Assembly (NCBI RefSeq): GCF_003633615.1
Contig: NZ_RBKU01000001.1
Span: forward strand, 682,001-746,000
Direction: 5' to 3'
Source: Mucilaginibacter gracilis
Lineage (GTDB): Bacteria > Bacteroidota > Bacteroidia > Sphingobacteriales > Sphingobacteriaceae
Length of the DNA stretch: 64,000 nucleotides
In this document: one piece after another, positions 44,173-53,420 of the stretch
Layout of the letters: each line of letters begins with the position of its first letter
Numbering within the stretch: position 1 is the stretch's first letter
The notes under the pieces: generated by a model
Told to the model about the DNA's origin: nothing
The model's input: the letters and a program-made list of their open reading frames with translations, nothing else
Database searches by the model: none
Made by a program: the position numbers and the translations under genes

Positions 44173-45375
44173 TAGTGTTATGTTAATCGTGTAATGACGG
44201 ATAAAGTCTTTTCAGTTTTATTCGCGCATCTTTATTTTCGAACTGCCAGTTAATTTTGCTGTTCTTATTATTTCTGTTGTGTTGCCATGCCGCTACCTCT
44301 TCATTGATCTTCAGCATTGTTGAAATATGCCTGTTTAGGCATTGCCCATTCAATACATGCAATTCTATCTCGGCCATATTGAGCCAGCTTCCATGCTTGG
44401 GCGTATAAACAAACTCAAACCTATCCCATAGCCTTTTGGCTTCGGCTGGTTCAAATGTCTCGTAAAATGCAGAGGCCGAATGGGTTTTAAAATTGTCCAT
44501 TACTAAAGTTATTTTTTTCGCTGTCGGGTACCATTCATCTGCTATTCTTTTTACGAATAAAGCCCAGTCCTTTTTGGTTTTAAACGCCGTAATTTCTACA
44601 AAGCGCTTGCCCCTCAAAGGCTCGTTGGCCATAAATATATTGACTACCCCATGCCTTATGTACTCGTAATCTACTCTTGCCTCCTGGCCAGGCTTCATGG
44701 CTTGAGAGGGCTGCCCTTCTTCTATCAATTGTTTTGGCGACTCATCCATACATACAACCGGAAATTCCTCATCATAAGGTTTTTTGTATACATCCAATAC
44801 GCGTTCCATATTGGCTACAAATTCGCTGCTTTTTTCCGGTGGTATTACCCAGCCCTTTACTTTCCAAGGCTTAAGTTCGTTTTTTTAAGCACACTTCTTA
44901 CTGTTACATGCGAAATACTTTCTACATATTCCAACTCTACCATTTTATCGGCGAGTAGCCTTAATGACCATTTAGCAAACCCCTCAGGCGGCTCGCTGCA
45001 ACACAAGGCAACCAGCTTCGCTTCTACATCGCCATCTGATTTTGTTTCATAAACACGGCTGGTGGGGCGACGATCTAAAACACCTTCAAAACCCTCTTCA
45101 ATAAACTTTTTCTTCACCCGGTCTATCGTTCGCATCCCTACTTTCAGGACTTTGCTGATCTGTTCATTTGTTATTTTCTCCGCATATTCCCCTTCATCAC
45201 AATTCAATAGTATATAGGCTGTCCGGAATGTTTGAGAACTATGGGAGCCCTTGTTGATTATCGAGTATAACTCTCCAACCTCCTCTTTTGTAAGTTTTAT
45301 CGTATAACGTACCATCTGTAATTTGTTTTACAAATATACGCTTTTATACGTCATATTATATTTAACTTAACACTA
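44173..45375. mobile_element. IS630 family insertion sequence with TA target duplication
   Basis: The element spans 44175-45373 and is flanked by TA (44173-44174 and 45374-45375), the standard target duplication of the IS630/mariner group. The terminal inverted repeats are imperfect: left GTGTTATGTTAATCGTGTAA, right (reverse complement) GTGTTAAGTTAAATATAATA, both continuing to ATGACG. It carries one transposase gene read by frameshift on the minus strand. The right-hand TA contributes the A of the ATG of the following gene, so the insertion has cut that gene from its own leader. Confidence 0.9.
44183..45315 (-). CDS. IS630 family transposase, expressed by -1 frameshift
   Basis: Two overlapping minus-strand frames make one transposase of about 377 aa. 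The first (45315-44857, 152 aa) has the N-terminal HTH domains (ITNEQISKVLKVGMRTIDRVKKKF) and ends LKKTNLSLGK. The second (44809-44183, ATG at 44809, open upstream to the shift) holds the DDE catalytic domain: VVCMDESPKQL, ITLVMDNFKTH and TPKHGSWLNMAEIELH. Joining them needs a -1 shift at a run of seven A (44882-44888), giving LKKNELKPWKVKGWVIPPE. Such slippery A-runs are the usual way IS630 elements make full transposase, so this is likely programmed and not decay. Confidence 0.88.
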
Positions 45376-46915: not shown

Positions 46916-47075
46916 TTTAATTGCTTTTATCACTATTTACTGCAAGATAAGCAGCAATTACGAACTCGGCTTTTACATAAAATAGCTTATTTATACATCT
47001 TAATTGCTTTTTTATATTTTATAGTTGCTTTTAAATACACTTTTAATTAATTTTACTTTTCTTAATTAAGTGTTT

Positions 47076-47954
47076 ATGAGCATTTATTCATTTGACAAGA
47101 TCGAAGAGATGACTGAGTTGAATTTTCAACTCACTTCAACGAGCGTTACGGTATTTATTAATTCTATTAATAAAGAGTTGATGTCATATGGGTTGAAAAT
47201 TTTAAAAAATGAATTTGCAATTGAAAACATCGTTCAAGATGCATATTTAAAATTATGGAATTTTAAAGACACTATCACTGATAGAGGTCATGCTGTAGCC
47301 TTTCTTAAACAAAACATCAAATGGGGTTGCCATTCCTATTTCCGTAGTAAAACGACCCGCTTTCATCGCCAGATGATTGAACTGGATTCATTGGAGTCTT
47401 ACGACGCTATTTTATTACCCAATGCGGTTTTCCATAACGACGAAGAAGTTGACGATAATCTTCAGAATGATCGTTTACGATCCACCTGGACTGCTATTTC
47501 GCATATCTTTTATGGTAAAGAAAAAGAGGTTGTTGAGTTATATTTTAAAAACGACCTAACCCATAAACAAATTGCTCTTCGCTACAACCTGTCGGTTACA
47601 ACAGTAACAATGATACTTGATAAAAGTAAGGCGAAATTAAAAACTATGCTGGTTTCAGCGCCGGAAAAGATGGGTACTAACAATAAGCCAAATCAACTGC
47701 CTTTGCTAACTTCTATCAACAGGCCGGACGAGTTTGATGGCTTGAACCATGATCAAAAGCAAATTTATTATTTGCGAACAATCTCTAAATACAGTTTTGA
47801 GCGAATAGCCACGGAATTAAAACTGCCTGTTTCCTACGTTCAAAGGGAATACGTAAGAGCCTGGCAAGCGGTGAGCTGTCAAAAAAAAGAAAAATTAACC
47901 GCCGCCAAATGGCGAAATCAGTCCGCCAAACAATACACACCCATAAGCGCCTGA
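47076..47954 (+). CDS. ECF-type sigma factor with extra C-terminal HTH, partner of dCas12f
   Basis: A 292-aa protein started at ATG 47076 (MSIYSFDKIEEM); a GTG two codons earlier is also possible. Sigma region 2 covers about residues 26-98 (KELMSYGLKILKNEFAIENI, VQDAYLKLWNFKDTITDRGH, IKWGCHSYFRSKTTRFHRQM). Sigma region 4 covers about 131-190 (IFYGKEKEVVELYFKNDLTH, KQIALRYNLSVTTVTMILDK). Unlike a standard ECF factor of about 190 aa it continues with some 95 residues containing another HTH-like segment (LNHDQKQIYYLRTISKYSFE, RIATELKLPVSYVQREYVRA). No anti-sigma factor is adjacent. Only 3 nt separate its stop from the next start, so the two products should be made together. Role by inference: it recruits RNA polymerase to DNA bound by the RNA-guided partner. 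Confidence 0.85.
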   Translation: MSIYSFDKIEEMTELNFQLTSTSVTVFINSINKELMSYGLKILKNEFAIENIVQDAYLKLWNFKDTITDRGHAVAFLKQNIKWGCHSYFRSKTTRFHRQMIELDSLESYDAILLPNAVFHNDEEVDDNLQNDRLRSTWTAISHIFYGKEKEVVELYFKNDLTHKQIALRYNLSVTTVTMILDKSKAKLKTMLVSAPEKMGTNNKPNQLPLLTSINRPDEFDGLNHDQKQIYYLRTISKYSFERIATELKLPVSYVQREYVRAWQAVSCQKKEKLTAAKWRNQSAKQYTPISA

Positions 47955-47957
47955 TCT

Positions 47958-49052
47958 ATGGCAAAATCAATGCATATAACAAGAAAGGTTCAGCTATTGA
48001 TCAATAGCGCCGACAAGGATTTTGTTTATGAATCTATCGGCAAATTGATGAAATGGCAAAACATCTGCTTTAAATGCGCCAACTTAATCTACACGCATCA
48101 TTTTTTGCAGGAACAGATCGCCGAAATGGTCTATCTCGCTGAAGGTACAAGGCTTAAATTGACGGATCACAATAAGGATTCAGATGGAATGCTGGTTTCA
48201 TCCCGAACTAATTCAACCTACAAAATACTAACTAATAAATTTAAAGGACAGATACCAAGCAATATTTTCAATAACCTGAACAGTCAGCTGGTTGCCACCT
48301 TTATTAAAGAAAGATCGCTCTACTATGAGGGCGAGCGTTCGATTAAAAATTTTAAACGAACCATCACACTGCCTTTCAGCGCAGAATGCATCCGGCAACT
48401 CAGCGAACATAATGAAACCGGTAATTTCACTTTTACCTTGTTCGGAATACCGTTTAAAACCTATCTCGGAAATGGCTTTGATGAGAAACGCGATCTGTTT
48501 AAACAAGTAATAACCTCCAATCTTAAGATGGCGACAAGCTTTCTTAAAATTGAACAAAAGAAAATTTATCTCCTCGCCACTTTCGTACAGGAACAGCAAA
48601 CTTATTTATTGAATGAAGAAGTGATTGCTGAAGCGTCACTATCTCTTGAAATTCCATTATTGGTCAAAGTTGGACGGGTGAGTTTTTCCATCGGCACCAA
48701 GGAGGAATTTCTTTACCGGAGACTTGCCATACAAACTGCCCGCAGCCGCGTGCAAACATCAGTTAATGGTAATCGCTCCGGTCACGGCAGGAAGCGCAAA
48801 CGCAAGCCATTGGAACATTATCTGCATTTGGAAAGAGATTATATAGATCATAAGCTGCACGTATACAGCAGGCGGCTGATAGACTTTTGTTTAAAACACC
48901 GTGCAGCTACGCTTATACTAACTGATCAGCAAGAGAAAGAGGAAGCTGCTAAAGCCGAGCCGTTCCTACTTAGAAACTGGAGTTACGGTCAATTCAAAGA
49001 TAAGATTGCTTTTAAAGCGGCAAAAGTCGGTATAAATCTGATTGTTGAATAG
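47958..49052 (+). CDS. Nuclease-dead Cas12f/TnpB-family protein (dCas12f-like), predicted RNA-guided DNA-binding protein
   Basis: A 364-aa protein. The C-terminal third matches the Cas12f/TnpB RuvC region: IGTKEEFLYRRLAIQTARSR (245-264) and GHGRKRKRKPLEHYLHLERD (275-294) as the bridge-helix-like arginine-rich part. HKLHVYSRRLIDFCLKHRAA (298-317) leads to the RuvC-II strand TLILTDQQ, where Thr322 stands in place of the catalytic Glu of the family IVIEDL motif. RNWSYGQFKDKIAFKAAKVG (339-358) precedes the end. At the RuvC-I strand (about 223-234, AEASLSLEIPL) Ser227 sits where Asp is expected. The protein ends before RuvC-III and the zinc finger. It should bind guide RNA and DNA without cutting. 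It is translationally coupled to the sigma factor and followed by two guide-like RNAs. Family assignment is by eye. Confidence 0.82.
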   Translation: MAKSMHITRKVQLLINSADKDFVYESIGKLMKWQNICFKCANLIYTHHFLQEQIAEMVYLAEGTRLKLTDHNKDSDGMLVSSRTNSTYKILTNKFKGQIPSNIFNNLNSQLVATFIKERSLYYEGERSIKNFKRTITLPFSAECIRQLSEHNETGNFTFTLFGIPFKTYLGNGFDEKRDLFKQVITSNLKMATSFLKIEQKKIYLLATFVQEQQTYLLNEEVIAEASLSLEIPLLVKVGRVSFSIGTKEEFLYRRLAIQTARSRVQTSVNGNRSGHGRKRKRKPLEHYLHLERDYIDHKLHVYSRRLIDFCLKHRAATLILTDQQEKEEAAKAEPFLLRNWSYGQFKDKIAFKAAKVGINLIVE

Positions 49053-49054
49053 TT

Positions 49055-49190
49055 TTAAATATTTGAGGCTGCTTGTACAGCCGTAAGGTGAATCTTTAAA
49101 TGCCTCACTAAGCAGGGTTAAAGTTTAGTAACCTCGCTTACAACGCGTCCTCTTATCGTGTTTTCACCACAATAATGGCAGGGCTAATGA
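49055..49190 (+). ncRNA. Predicted guide RNA 1 (scaffold plus 3' guide)
   Basis: It starts 3 nt after the dCas12f stop. The conserved scaffold, about 49055-49163, begins TTAAATATTTGAGGCTGC. A perfect hairpin GGCTG/CAGCC is at 49067-49082, a second weaker stem is around GTGAA...CTCAC, and an AACG/CGTGTTT segment lies near 49142-49163. The same layout is repeated 201 nt downstream. After CGTGTTT the two copies lose all similarity; the tail here begins TCACCACAATAATGGCAGGG, which I read as the guide. The exact ends and guide boundary are estimates. A rough visual search found no convincing full match to the guide in this window. Confidence 0.7.
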
Positions 49191-49255
49191 ATAGGGTTTC
49201 ATCGAATGTCTTAACCACTGAAGTGATATTTTATAACTCATATTATTAGATAGGA

Positions 49256-49395
49256 TTAAATATTGGAGGCTGCTTGTACAGCCGTAGGGTGAGGCTTTTT
49301 TACCTCACTAAGTAACGGTGAAAGTTTACGATGACCTTACCCGCGCATACAACGGCTCGCTTGTCGTATTTAATTGGCAAGTTGATTTTATAAAA
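49256..49395 (+). ncRNA. Predicted guide RNA 2 (scaffold plus 3' guide)
   Basis: The second copy of the scaffold, about 49256-49371, begins TTAAATATTGGAGGCTGC and shares the perfect hairpin GGCTG/CAGCC. A stronger stem GTGAGG/CCTCAC with a T-rich loop follows (weaker in copy 1). Both copies continue with GTGAAAGTTTA/GTTAAAGTTTA and TACAACG...TCGT blocks. Compensating differences within the stem argue for a conserved RNA structure. After CGTATTT the tail is AATTGGCAAGTTGATTTTAT, unrelated to that of copy 1. I see no coding potential. The promoter may lie in the AT-rich 65 nt upstream or in the conserved TTAAATATT block. Confidence 0.7.
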
Positions 49396-50279: not shown

Positions 50280-51431
50280 ATGAAAAAATTCACGCTAACG
50301 TTATTAATTATAATTATTTGCGGATTAACGGCTTTTGCACAGGATAGCACCGGCAGTAACAAAGCCTTTGACATGTTTCAGGGTGCTGAAGTGTACGAAG
50401 ACGGAATGATGCAAATGCTCACCGGGCTTAGGGATCAGATCTGGGGCCAGGGTGTCGATTTTGTAAATGATGCCAAAGCCCTTTCTGCCATTTTCATGAT
50501 TATTTTTTTCGCGATCAGATCTTATGAAATGATGGTCGGCGATAAGCAAATGGAAATTATGCCTTTACTCCGCCCTTTCGGTCTGTCGATGATCATTTTA
50601 TGGTGGAACGTTTTTGTAAGAATGGTTGCGTTTCCATGCGAGCTGGTCGAAAATCAGGCGAAGGACAAATGGCAGACCGCGCAGGTAGAGGCCGACAACC
50701 TCCGGGTCAAACGGGCCGAGTTGATGAAAGAAATGGCTGATAGTCTTTATAATTTTCAAGCGCAGACCAGTGTCGCGGAAAAGGAATCAGATACCTGGTA
50801 TGGTCAGGCCTGGGATCAGGTCACAAGTACGGTTAAACAAGGGATATCTACCGTTGTAGGACCAATATTGGAATTGAAGCAAAGGCTTCAAATCAGCCTT
50901 CAATTACTCCTTACACAGCTTTTAGAGTTAATAGCGGTATGGATATTAAGGATCGCCACCTATTTCGTATTCTTTATACAGGTTTTCTATTCCAGCTTAC
51001 TTGTGCTACTCGGCCCCTTTGCGATAGCGGTCAGTATCCTTCCGGCATTCAGAGATAGTTTTACGACTTGGGTTGCCCGTTTTATTTCTGTAAATCTCTA
51101 TGGCGCGATAGCCTACCTGATCATGTGGTTGTCAGCGTACATACAGCAATATGCAATGACCGTGGAGATCAGCCGGTATCAGGGTATTTTGCATGGAAGC
51201 GGTACCGCCAATAAAATGGCGGAGTTTGCCATTTTTGCATCTAATGGTATACTATCTTTCGGAACAGTGATCGTCACTTTTTTAATTGGCGCGATTGCCA
51301 TGTTTACCGTGCCCAGTATATCAACATGGGTTGTATCTACTTCCGGTATAAGTTCAGCGGCATCTACTTTTGGCAGGCAGGCATCTGTGGCCTCCAAAGT
51401 GGTTACTAAGACTGTTACCGGAGTGTTTTAA
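50280..51431 (+). CDS. traJ: TraJ-like conjugative transfer membrane protein
   Basis: A 383-aa protein with a signal peptide (ending LTAFAQ). A periplasmic-side segment is followed by transmembrane helices around SAIFMIIFFAIRSYEMMVGD and FGLSMIILWWNVFVRMV, then a coiled-coil-prone stretch 120-170. The C-terminal membrane cluster is LLTQLLELIAVWILRIATYF, YSSLLVLLGPFAIAVSILPA and ISVNLYGAIAYLIMWLSAYI. This is the Bacteroidota TraJ of conjugative transposons, a VirB6-like inner-membrane channel component. No traG, traI, traK, traM or traN flanks it, so it is an orphan: a relic, or a component recruited to another use or to mobilisation by a helper. Confidence 0.85.
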   Translation: MKKFTLTLLIIIICGLTAFAQDSTGSNKAFDMFQGAEVYEDGMMQMLTGLRDQIWGQGVDFVNDAKALSAIFMIIFFAIRSYEMMVGDKQMEIMPLLRPFGLSMIILWWNVFVRMVAFPCELVENQAKDKWQTAQVEADNLRVKRAELMKEMADSLYNFQAQTSVAEKESDTWYGQAWDQVTSTVKQGISTVVGPILELKQRLQISLQLLLTQLLELIAVWILRIATYFVFFIQVFYSSLLVLLGPFAIAVSILPAFRDSFTTWVARFISVNLYGAIAYLIMWLSAYIQQYAMTVEISRYQGILHGSGTANKMAEFAIFASNGILSFGTVIVTFLIGAIAMFTVPSISTWVVSTSGISSAASTFGRQASVASKVVTKTVTGVF

Positions 51432-51705
51432 GCGAACTAAGGAAGCCGCTTGATTGAACATGGGCGGCTTCCTTTTTTTAGCGGGTTGAAATATCCGCAC
51501 TATTAGCCGGTTATTCCGGCCACCATTGAAATCTGGATTTTCTAATTTCAAGGTGCTTACATGAATAATGATACCGCCGGGTCCGTAAGGTTTCTGTAAT
51601 GCGCCGTTTATTGTTCCCGACTGTATCATCTGTCGGCGCACATGCCTGGAATTGTTACAGGCGTTAAGTGACTACCGATGACAGGGATTAATAAATCACA
51701 TTACG

Positions 51706-51867
51706 ATGAAGAGCGATTCTTCAAACAAAAGAACAGTAACTACCAGTCAGGCCATTAAAATGTTGGAAAAAAATGGTGTAAAAGTTACTGAAAAAAAAGC
51801 CCAGGAAATTTTGGATTTAATGTATTTTTTAGCTAAATTGATTGTAAATCAGAACTTTAACAAATGA
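51706..51867 (+). CDS. Small protein coupled to the serine recombinase
   Basis: A 53-aa ORF: MKSDSSNKRTVTTSQAIKML and then EKNGVKVTEKKAQEILDLMY, ending AKLIVNQNFNK. Its stop overlaps the recombinase start (ATGA at 51864-51867), so the two are translationally coupled. Such small proteins regularly precede large serine recombinases in Bacteroidota; databases often carry the doubtful label of a PTS sugar transporter subunit for them, which nothing here supports. The 274 nt upstream, to traJ, are non-coding. Confidence 0.8.
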   Translation: MKSDSSNKRTVTTSQAIKMLEKNGVKVTEKKAQEILDLMYFLAKLIVNQNFNK

Positions 51868-53420
51868 AAGTAGCAGATATTTATATAAGGGTGAGTACAG
51901 ATGAACAGGCCGATAAAGGTTATTCTCAAAGAAGCCAGGAAGAGGTACTGCGCCGCTATTGTGAGATTAACAACATCAGTATAAGGAAAACCATATTTGA
52001 AGATCATTCTGCCAAAACGTTTGTCAGGCCCCAGTGGCAGGGCTTGTTGCTCAACCTGAGGAAGCAGCGCGGAAAAATCGATCTTATCTTATTTACGAAG
52101 TGGGACAGGTTTAGCCGAAACGCACCAGATGCTTATCAAATGATCAACACACTTAAAATATTAGGTGTGGAGCCGCAGGCTATAGAACAGCCTTTGGATA
52201 TGGAAGTTCCTGAAAACAAAATGATGCTGGCTATTTATCTTACTGCACCGGAGATAGAAAACGACAGAAGGGCATTAAATACATTTTATGGTCTAAGGCG
52301 TGCCAGGAAGGAAGGCCGTTGGGTATCTCACGCCCCTGTGGGTTATATCAACAGGCACGATGCTACAGGGAAGAAATATATTGCTATCGATCCGCCACAG
52401 GCTAAAATCATGGAATGGGCATTTAACGAGATTGCAAAGGGTATTTATTCCACGCAGCAAGTATATGAAAAAGCTGCGGAGATGGGTTTAAAGTGTAAGC
52501 GGAACAACTTTTACGTGGCGGTGCGCAATCCTGTTTATTGCGGAAAGATACTAATCGTTAAATATAAGGACGAAGCGGCACACACCGTTAAGGGATTGCA
52601 TGATGGCATTATTTCTGAATCTTTATTTTACGACGTTCAGGACGTTTTAAGCGGGAAAAAGAGGGAGGAGAAAACAAAGGTTCATTCGCCGGATATGTTG
52701 CCTTTAAGGGGCTTTATTAAATGCTCAAGGTGCAACCGCATTTTGTGCGGGAGCGCATCCAAAGGTCGCAATGGATATTACTACTACTATCATTGTTCTT
52801 CAGCTTGTGGGTGCAGGTATAAGGCCGAAGAGGTAAATAAAGTATTCGATCAGGTAATAGAGGAATTCACTATCCAGGAGGAATATGCAGATCTGTTTAC
52901 TGAAGTTATCAGGGATACGTACAAAAACCAAAATACGACAACTTTGGTATCCCGTTCTGAATTGCTAAAGGAAATCAATGAGCTGAATAACCGCACCAGT
53001 AAAGCAAGGGAACTTCTTTTAAACGGAGACATTGACGGTGCCGATTATAAGACCATTAAATCAGAAAATGAATACAAGGTAAATGTATTAGAAGCGAAGT
53101 TATCGGAAGCAGCAGCGGCTAATTCCAAGACTGCGAACATTGAACCGCTACTTAGACCGGCTATTAGCAAATTAACGAGATTAAATACAATCTATTCAAA
53201 ATCAGATAGTTCCAATAAACGAGAATTAATTGGTTCGATGTACCCCCAAAAATTCACTTTCGAGGAATTGCAACATCGAACCGCTTTGACGAGTGAATTG
53301 TACTCTTGTATCTACTTGATTAACAGTGAAATAAAAGGCAAAAAAGAAGGGCAAGCGACCGATTTCTCGTGCTTGCCCATTCTGGCTCCTGAGGCTGGGC
53401 TCGAACCAGCGACCCTCTGA
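51864..53420 (+). CDS. Large serine recombinase
   Basis: A 518-aa site-specific recombinase. The N-terminal resolvase domain has the catalytic Ser11 in ADIYIRVSTDEQADKGYSQR and LFTKWDRFSRNAPDAYQMIN. Next come the recombinase domain (RRARKEGRWVSHAPVGYINR), the zinc ribbon (FIKCSRCNRILCGS, then CSSACGCRY) and a coiled-coil region around 350-420. It should catalyse integration and excision of an element. The last 30 or so codons run through a terminator hairpin (53349-53378) and a tRNA-Asn 3' fragment read on the opposite strand, giving the tail LAPEAGLEPATL; that tail is not a real protein domain. The native C-terminus was probably different before integration next to it. Confidence 0.93.
   Translation: MKVADIYIRVSTDEQADKGYSQRSQEEVLRRYCEINNISIRKTIFEDHSAKTFVRPQWQGLLLNLRKQRGKIDLILFTKWDRFSRNAPDAYQMINTLKILGVEPQAIEQPLDMEVPENKMMLAIYLTAPEIENDRRALNTFYGLRRARKEGRWVSHAPVGYINRHDATGKKYIAIDPPQAKIMEWAFNEIAKGIYSTQQVYEKAAEMGLKCKRNNFYVAVRNPVYCGKILIVKYKDEAAHTVKGLHDGIISESLFYDVQDVLSGKKREEKTKVHSPDMLPLRGFIKCSRCNRILCGSASKGRNGYYYYYHCSSACGCRYKAEEVNKVFDQVIEEFTIQEEYADLFTEVIRDTYKNQNTTTLVSRSELLKEINELNNRTSKARELLLNGDIDGADYKTIKSENEYKVNVLEAKLSEAAAANSKTANIEPLLRPAISKLTRLNTIYSKSDSSNKRELIGSMYPQKFTFEELQHRTALTSELYSCIYLINSEIKGKKEGQATDFSCLPILAPEAGLEPATL
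53349..53378 (-). terminator. Minus-strand terminator linked to the tRNA-Asn fragment
   Basis: GGGCAAGC (53349-53356) pairs with GCTTGCCC (53371-53378). Read on the minus strand the stem is followed by CTTCTTTTTT. It lies 4 nt after the CCA end of the tRNA-Asn fragment, so it is most simply the native terminator of that tRNA gene. Confidence 0.65.

Follow-up and report, generated by a model that had tools for sequence, protein, structure and literature searches.

The locus analysed here places a sigma factor gene, a gene of the Cas12f family and two guide-like RNAs in direct succession, which raises the question of what such guides would address in the genome and what the sigma factor would do there. 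We studied it in the window, by which we mean the whole 64,000-nt stretch of Mucilaginibacter gracilis DNA, and in related loci and genomes. The features of the locus are collected in Table 1, in window coordinates.

A sigma factor and a likely nuclease-dead Cas12f in one operon

As originally predicted, a sigma gene (open reading frame 47070-47954, with an in-frame ATG at 47076) is followed after 3 nt by a gene of the Cas12f family (open reading frame 47958-49052), and both frames are intact. In Pfam, the sigma protein matched Sigma70_r4 (2.3e-12) and r4_2 (2.1e-09), with a region 2 match below the cut-off; in the PDB it matched chain 9n9q_C, named 'RpoE', with an E value of 1.8e-18. The 364-aa product of the second gene gave no match in Pfam and matched the PDB chain 9n9c_A, 'Nuclease-deactivated Cas12f', with an E value of 1.4e-107 (phmmer). 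Structure prediction agreed with a Cas12f-type fold: the AlphaFold model (pLDDT 77.4, pTM 0.64) retrieved by Foldseek first 9n9m, a dCas12f-gRNA-DNA complex with a partial R-loop (9n9m_A, E 3.1e-37, TM 0.77, 46% identity), and then 9n9c, and dCas12f and Cas12f chains ranked above TnpB chains. The matches of both proteins to dCas12f and RpoE chains support the original assignment of this locus to the known dCas12f-sigmaE kind, and homology suggests that it would carry out RNA-guided transcription.

The original prediction had also read the RuvC-I Asp and RuvC-II Glu positions of the protein as Ser227 and Thr322. Both residues are where it put them, and Ser227 faces the Asp of the active Cas12f structures 9nzo and 9nzr in the phmmer alignment, so that the RuvC-I replacement stands; around Thr322 that alignment is gapped, and the RuvC-II replacement is putative. 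The protein (364 aa) has about the length of the solved dCas12f chain (365 aa), and it presumably ends ahead of RuvC-III, going by the general anatomy of Cas12f. The RuvC domain may thus be inactivated, and the protein is likely part of the known nuclease-dead kind.

Among the best 120 of 636 relatives of this dCas12f, 21 share 64-73% identity with it and the next ones 48-54%. The closest, from Mucilaginibacter sp. OK268 (locus L002), has 96% protein identity. The genome of M. gracilis itself, a single 6.66-Mb contig, contains one dCas12f.

The HTH gene that diverges from the operon is likely its regulator. HTH ORFs that pass the Pfam cut-offs occupy this position in each of the six close relatives that were tested (L002-L006 and L088), and the TTTTAATTGCTTTTA-like repeats in the intergenic region are possible operators for the HTH protein. 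None of the 10 ORFs around the locus is cas1, cas2 or tnpA. Further upstream, on the minus strand at 44183-45315, neighbouring ORFs for a DDE_3 transposase and an HTH_32 protein are likely one split insertion-sequence transposase. On the other side, a TraJ-like ORF (below the Pfam cut-off) and a serine recombinase lie at 50280-53420; few further conjugation genes were noticed among the listed ORFs, so that this stretch may be what is left of a mobile element.

Table 1. Features of the sigma-dCas12f locus (positions in the 64,000-nt window)
Feature	Position	Strand	Details
Divergent Cro/C1-type HTH gene, 76 aa	46703..46933	-	HTH_3 above Pfam cut-off
A+T-rich divergent intergenic region	46934..47069	.	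Copies of a TTTTAATTGCTTTTA-like repeat (repeat family D2)
ECF-like sigma factor gene	47076..47954	+	Two region-4-like HTH stretches; Pfam and PDB matches
dCas12f gene, 364 aa	47958..49052	+	RuvC-I Asp replaced by Ser227; PDB, Foldseek
gRNA 1 scaffold	49065..49144	+	Ends TACAAC; about 9 nt shorter than scaffold 2
Likely guide 1, GCGTCCTCTTATCGTG	49145..49160	+	Begins after TACAAC as in relatives
gRNA 2 scaffold	49266..49353	+	Ends TACAAC; equivalent of the single gRNA of L002
Likely guide 2, GGCTCGCTTGTCGTAT	49354..49369	+	First 14 bases common to L002 and L088

Two guide RNAs with a likely guide start after TACAAC

The two structured repeats that had been described directly downstream of the dCas12f gene are present, spaced 201 nt apart and 82% identical over 67 nt. 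Since the repeat unit takes in the last dCas12f codons, and since L002, with which scaffold 2 is conserved, has a single copy that is most like the second one here, the two copies appear to stem from a tandem duplication, the first of them having since diverged. Conservation in homologous loci, on which the original reading depended, was found as well: the family shares the scaffold head, with 0-10 copies per locus by fuzzy matching (10 in L013 and 8 in L015), so two gRNAs at one locus are unremarkable.

The start of the guides had to be moved. The original prediction took the unrelated 3' tails of the repeats as guides. In L013, L015, L053 and L075, a tracr-like head precedes repeat-like units that end in ACAAC and have spacers behind them; at other loci the gRNA ends in TACAAC or similar, and 15-21 nt common to the species follow before the sequences diverge. 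The ACAAC-ending units and the conservation past TACAAC point to guide starts at 49145 and 49354, so that the guides likely begin right after TACAAC, about 16 nt before the tails. In the four loci named, units such as AATTTGAAAGGTATATACAAC and their spacers, lying 3' of dCas12f, look like a small CRISPR-like array.

As guides, the tails were not supported by the whole-genome search that had been proposed as their check. Searched as 20-mers with at most 3 mismatches, they matched the own genome no more often than reversed patterns did (2 versus 3 and 4 versus 4 matches, self included). Their non-self matches amounted to one and three sites, three of the four within ORFs or at their ends and the fourth at L086. 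The guides after TACAAC, also taken as 20-mers with at most 3 mismatches, matched only themselves in the own genome.

A leader element with two mutually exclusive helices

A search with the guides of family loci gave an exact 16-base match upstream of the sigma gene in L051 and a match of 14 bases in L072, and both fall within a folded element, here called the leader. Seeded with 15 such elements, nhmmer (E<=1e-3) was run over 80 family loci and found the leader in 28 of them (weak or partial in L019 and L037); elsewhere in genomes it was found at L118, L120/L133 (one place), L130 and L131. By eye, the leaders of L130, L131 and L133 stand beside two opposite-strand HTH-like genes, upstream of a ~90-aa ORF and a TlpA-like gene. 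Many Flavobacteriaceae have this leader in front of the sigma-dCas12f genes, and none was seen at that place in the clade of the window; nhmmer and covariance-model searches found no leader anywhere in the 64-kb window.

The leader is about 150 nt long and has covarying helices, two of which are mutually exclusive. Compared with shuffles that leave the relatedness of the elements in, helices P1, P2 and P4 pair in 97.4% of cells over 32 elements, with a covariation of 0.447 (shuffled mean 0.151, slid maximum 0.080), and P5, the exclusive helix formed by the arm and the 3' tail, pairs in 98.0% of cells, with a covariation of 0.350 (shuffled mean 0.205, slid maximum 0.122). Judged by eye, a T-run follows P5 in many leaders of Flavobacteriaceae and is not clear in Pedobacter and in several Mucilaginibacter. 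A comparison of three loci with Rfam returned nothing at the element, and the leader RNA family is apparently undescribed.

With a covariance model and strict filters, the leader was detected in 70 of 149 relatives, and dCas12f (E<=1e-60) in 10 of the same 149. The leader occurs in nine of the 10 dCas12f genomes; an association at the genome level was dropped, as the leader also occurs in 61 of the 139 genomes without dCas12f at this threshold and relatedness confounds the comparison. Given their presence in many relatives without detected dCas12f, the leaders are probably independent of the system, and the two frequencies make it likely that the system exploits leaders that were there before it.

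Guides of several relatives match the 3' arm of the leader

In 13 of the 28 leader-bearing loci, a set that includes the near-identical L049, L058 and L067, the guide matches the 3' arm of the leader at 13-16 of 16 bases, with a 5'-G in all 13 cases, a count that is not independent of the guide matches because the leader was first found through them. Two more leader loci reach 12/16 and the rest are lower; reversed guides score 8-11 on these 15. The leader was found in 14 of the 31 loci with GCGTGGGCT-type guides, the other 17 having none within the fetched stretch.

Fits to the leaders of the same genome varied. The guide of G151 agrees with its own leader at 16/16, a second G151 leader differing at one base; in G149 one guide fits at 15/16 and another at 13/16, and most of the 11 tried fit no leader. 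Guides of G036 (14/16), G152 and G044 (11/12) and G062 (10/12) were likewise compared with their own leaders, and the G035 leader fits its guide behind a T instead of a G. No model-found own leader was fitted by the guides of G034, G153 and G154. In G153 (Pedobacter foliorum) a pattern search gave two exact 18-base guide sites, both in leaders whose arm-tail helix is longer; one of these leaders precedes a TonB-receptor (SusC-like) ORF and the other a 63-aa ORF and a gene for a DUF6624 protein. When guide cores were searched in three Pedobacter genomes, exact leader sites appeared in G153 only; in G149 and G150 the best guide-core match was at their own gRNA, and one other match was coding.

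Because the arms are alike, guide 2 of the window and the guides of G036 and G062 fit foreign leaders at least as well as their own. Genome-specific fits were seen for guide 1 of the window and for the G149 guide, several others matching foreign leaders equally, and strict covariation of arm and guide across all loci was not found. A degenerate 17-base pattern was discarded, with 62 matches in six genomes against 61 for the control overall; four of its matches, at L118, L130, L131 and L133, sat in leader elements and led to the leader model.

These matches bear on another division of the gRNA, in which the stretch after TACAAC belongs to the scaffold, forming in gRNA 2 a short hairpin (ACGGC-loop-GUCGU), and the unrelated tails are the true guides, with targets outside the genome. 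The stretch is indeed conserved in the Mucilaginibacter clade, the hairpin is possible by eye, and perfect own-genome targets are missing for the tails and the post-TACAAC guides alike. However, the stretch varies between clades and elsewhere matches leader arms behind a 5'-G, the two exact G153 sites among them, and the repeat-like units of relatives end at ACAAC, against an extended scaffold; we consider such a division unlikely.

If the guides do begin after TACAAC, they might still act on RNA, the arm copy pairing with the tail or the 5' strand of the leader transcript and flipping the switch in trans. An RNA copy of the arm could compete in this way, the arm being a strand of two exclusive helices. 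Yet Mucilaginibacter guides copy arm bases past the part that pairs with the tail, and the related 9n9m was, by its title, solved on DNA. Targets of dCas12f-sigmaE are reported to carry a 5'-G adjacent motif, and the arm that the guides match is preceded by a 5'-G, which binding to DNA would require. Action at the RNA level thus seems very unlikely.

Candidate targets in the own genome

In the genome of M. gracilis, the covariance model gave 10 candidate leaders, five of them at E<1e-3. Guide 1 fits the arm column of the leader at 4748789-4748944 at 10/12 (GCGCCCGCTTAT behind a G), and guide 2 those of the leaders at 3974752-3974904 and 4927120-4927273 at 10/12 each (GGCTGGCTTGTT behind a G). 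The same own-genome fit was reached by 70 of 20000 shuffled versions of guide 1 and by 161 of 20000 of guide 2; over 16 bases guide 1 scores 10/16, a value matched by 366 of 1000 shuffles. Two other leaders, at 852291-852450 (-) and 2579101-2579253 (+), had best guide fits of 8 and 9 of 12. As guide 1 gains nothing over 16 bases and no 20-mer match exists, the own-genome leader targets of the two guides are suggestive only; no better target exists for either.

Downstream of the leader fitted by guide 1 lie a 90-aa ORF, a thioredoxin-like (TlpA) gene, a TonB receptor (SusC) gene and SusD. From the 5'-G at 4748870 it is 57 nt to the 3' tail (partner) strand and 113 nt to the ATG. The twin leaders fitted by guide 2 (L193 and L220) are paralogous and precede GNAT, LuxR-type and RteC genes, with a TraG-type gene further on in one of the modules; together they are possibly a conjugation-control circuit.

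Alternatively, the locus might be a decaying passenger, with guide 1 as a degenerate duplicate and no functional target for either guide in the host, and the absence of a perfect target from the own genome and the loss of about 9 nt from scaffold 1 can be read in that way. We find decay improbable: both ORFs are intact, scaffold 2 has been kept in common with L002, and guide 1 reaches 10/12 on one own leader against a maximum of 8/12 in nine other genomes.

A proposed bypass of the leader switch

The reading that we think probable is that the guides after TACAAC bring sigma and RNA polymerase (RNAP) to the 3' arm of two-state leaders, starting transcription there. The gRNA would find its DNA target in the leader's 3' arm; the operon served by guide 1 would be that of TlpA, SusC and SusD near 4.75 Mb, and guide 2 would act on the two GNAT-LuxR-RteC modules at about 3.97 and 4.93 Mb. 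Sigma-RNAP at the arm would then start transcription downstream of the arm. Because a transcript from there would not include the 5' strands of the switch, it would bypass the switch.

A complex bound at the same place could also have the opposite effect, that of a roadblock at the leader, like a TldR repressor. The predicted targets are indeed internal to leaders, on the downstream side of the putative promoter of the leader, and nuclease-dead relatives (TldR) repress (PMC13418256). However, a sigma gene related to one solved with dCas12f sits 3 nt upstream of the dCas12f gene, which argues against a roadblock, and we regard repression as quite unlikely.

Returning to activation past the switch, we tentatively suggest a wider role, which we regard as possible. 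The dCas12f-sigmaE systems might be override keys for a widespread two-state leader: guides that copy the arm would open a promoter inside the leader, past the switch, and SusC/D and conjugation-control operons would be uncoupled from the leader's own signal. In Flavobacteriaceae the system might form a self-feeding loop, and in the clade of the window the duplicated gRNA might follow a diverged arm. If the probable reading given above is right, natural RNA-guided transcription would start within a regulatory leader and skip its switch, and the guides of the family would have an address in common, namely the 3' arm of structured leaders before SusC-type and conjugation-control operons. A locus with many gRNAs may then control a regulon made up of paralogous leaders. 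Both the shared leader target and the bypass of the switch may be new; a search of titles and abstract openings, weak because it covered few subscription papers, gave nothing on dCas12f-sigmaE or the leader.

Comparison with known systems

A 2025 preprint from the Sternberg laboratory reportedly describes RNA-guided transcription by the dCas12f-sigmaE family, in which RNAP is said to be recruited and the transcription start site set by the distance from the R-loop. The locus of the window resembles these systems (PDB 9n9c, 9n9m, 9n9o and 9n9q) in its homologous dCas12f, its RpoE-like sigma, its downstream gRNA and the 5'-G before its candidate sites. It differs from them in belonging to a separate subclade at 64-73% identity, in its place next to a conjugation gene, in a sigma that is only distantly alike, and in having two gRNAs, one of them diverged, whose predicted targets lie in two-state leaders.

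TldR is a TnpB-derived repressor that is not known to have a linked sigma. As TnpB-like nuclease-dead repressors (PMC13418256), TldR proteins are comparable with the present dCas12f as nuclease-dead TnpB/Cas12 relatives in RNA-guided gene control. In contrast to them, the locus of the window links a sigma gene to one for a Cas12f-type protein and is expected to activate. Identity with TldR was rejected on account of the adjoining sigma gene and of the Foldseek ranking, in which TnpB chains come below those of dCas12f and Cas12f.

Two-state transcription attenuators and riboswitch-type leaders place mutually exclusive helices upstream of operons. The predicted target leader is like them in its exclusive, covarying helices before operons and in the T-run seen in many Flavobacteriaceae. 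It differs in that it has no match in Rfam (three loci), that some of its members are without a clear T-run, and that its arm doubles as the predicted target of a gRNA.
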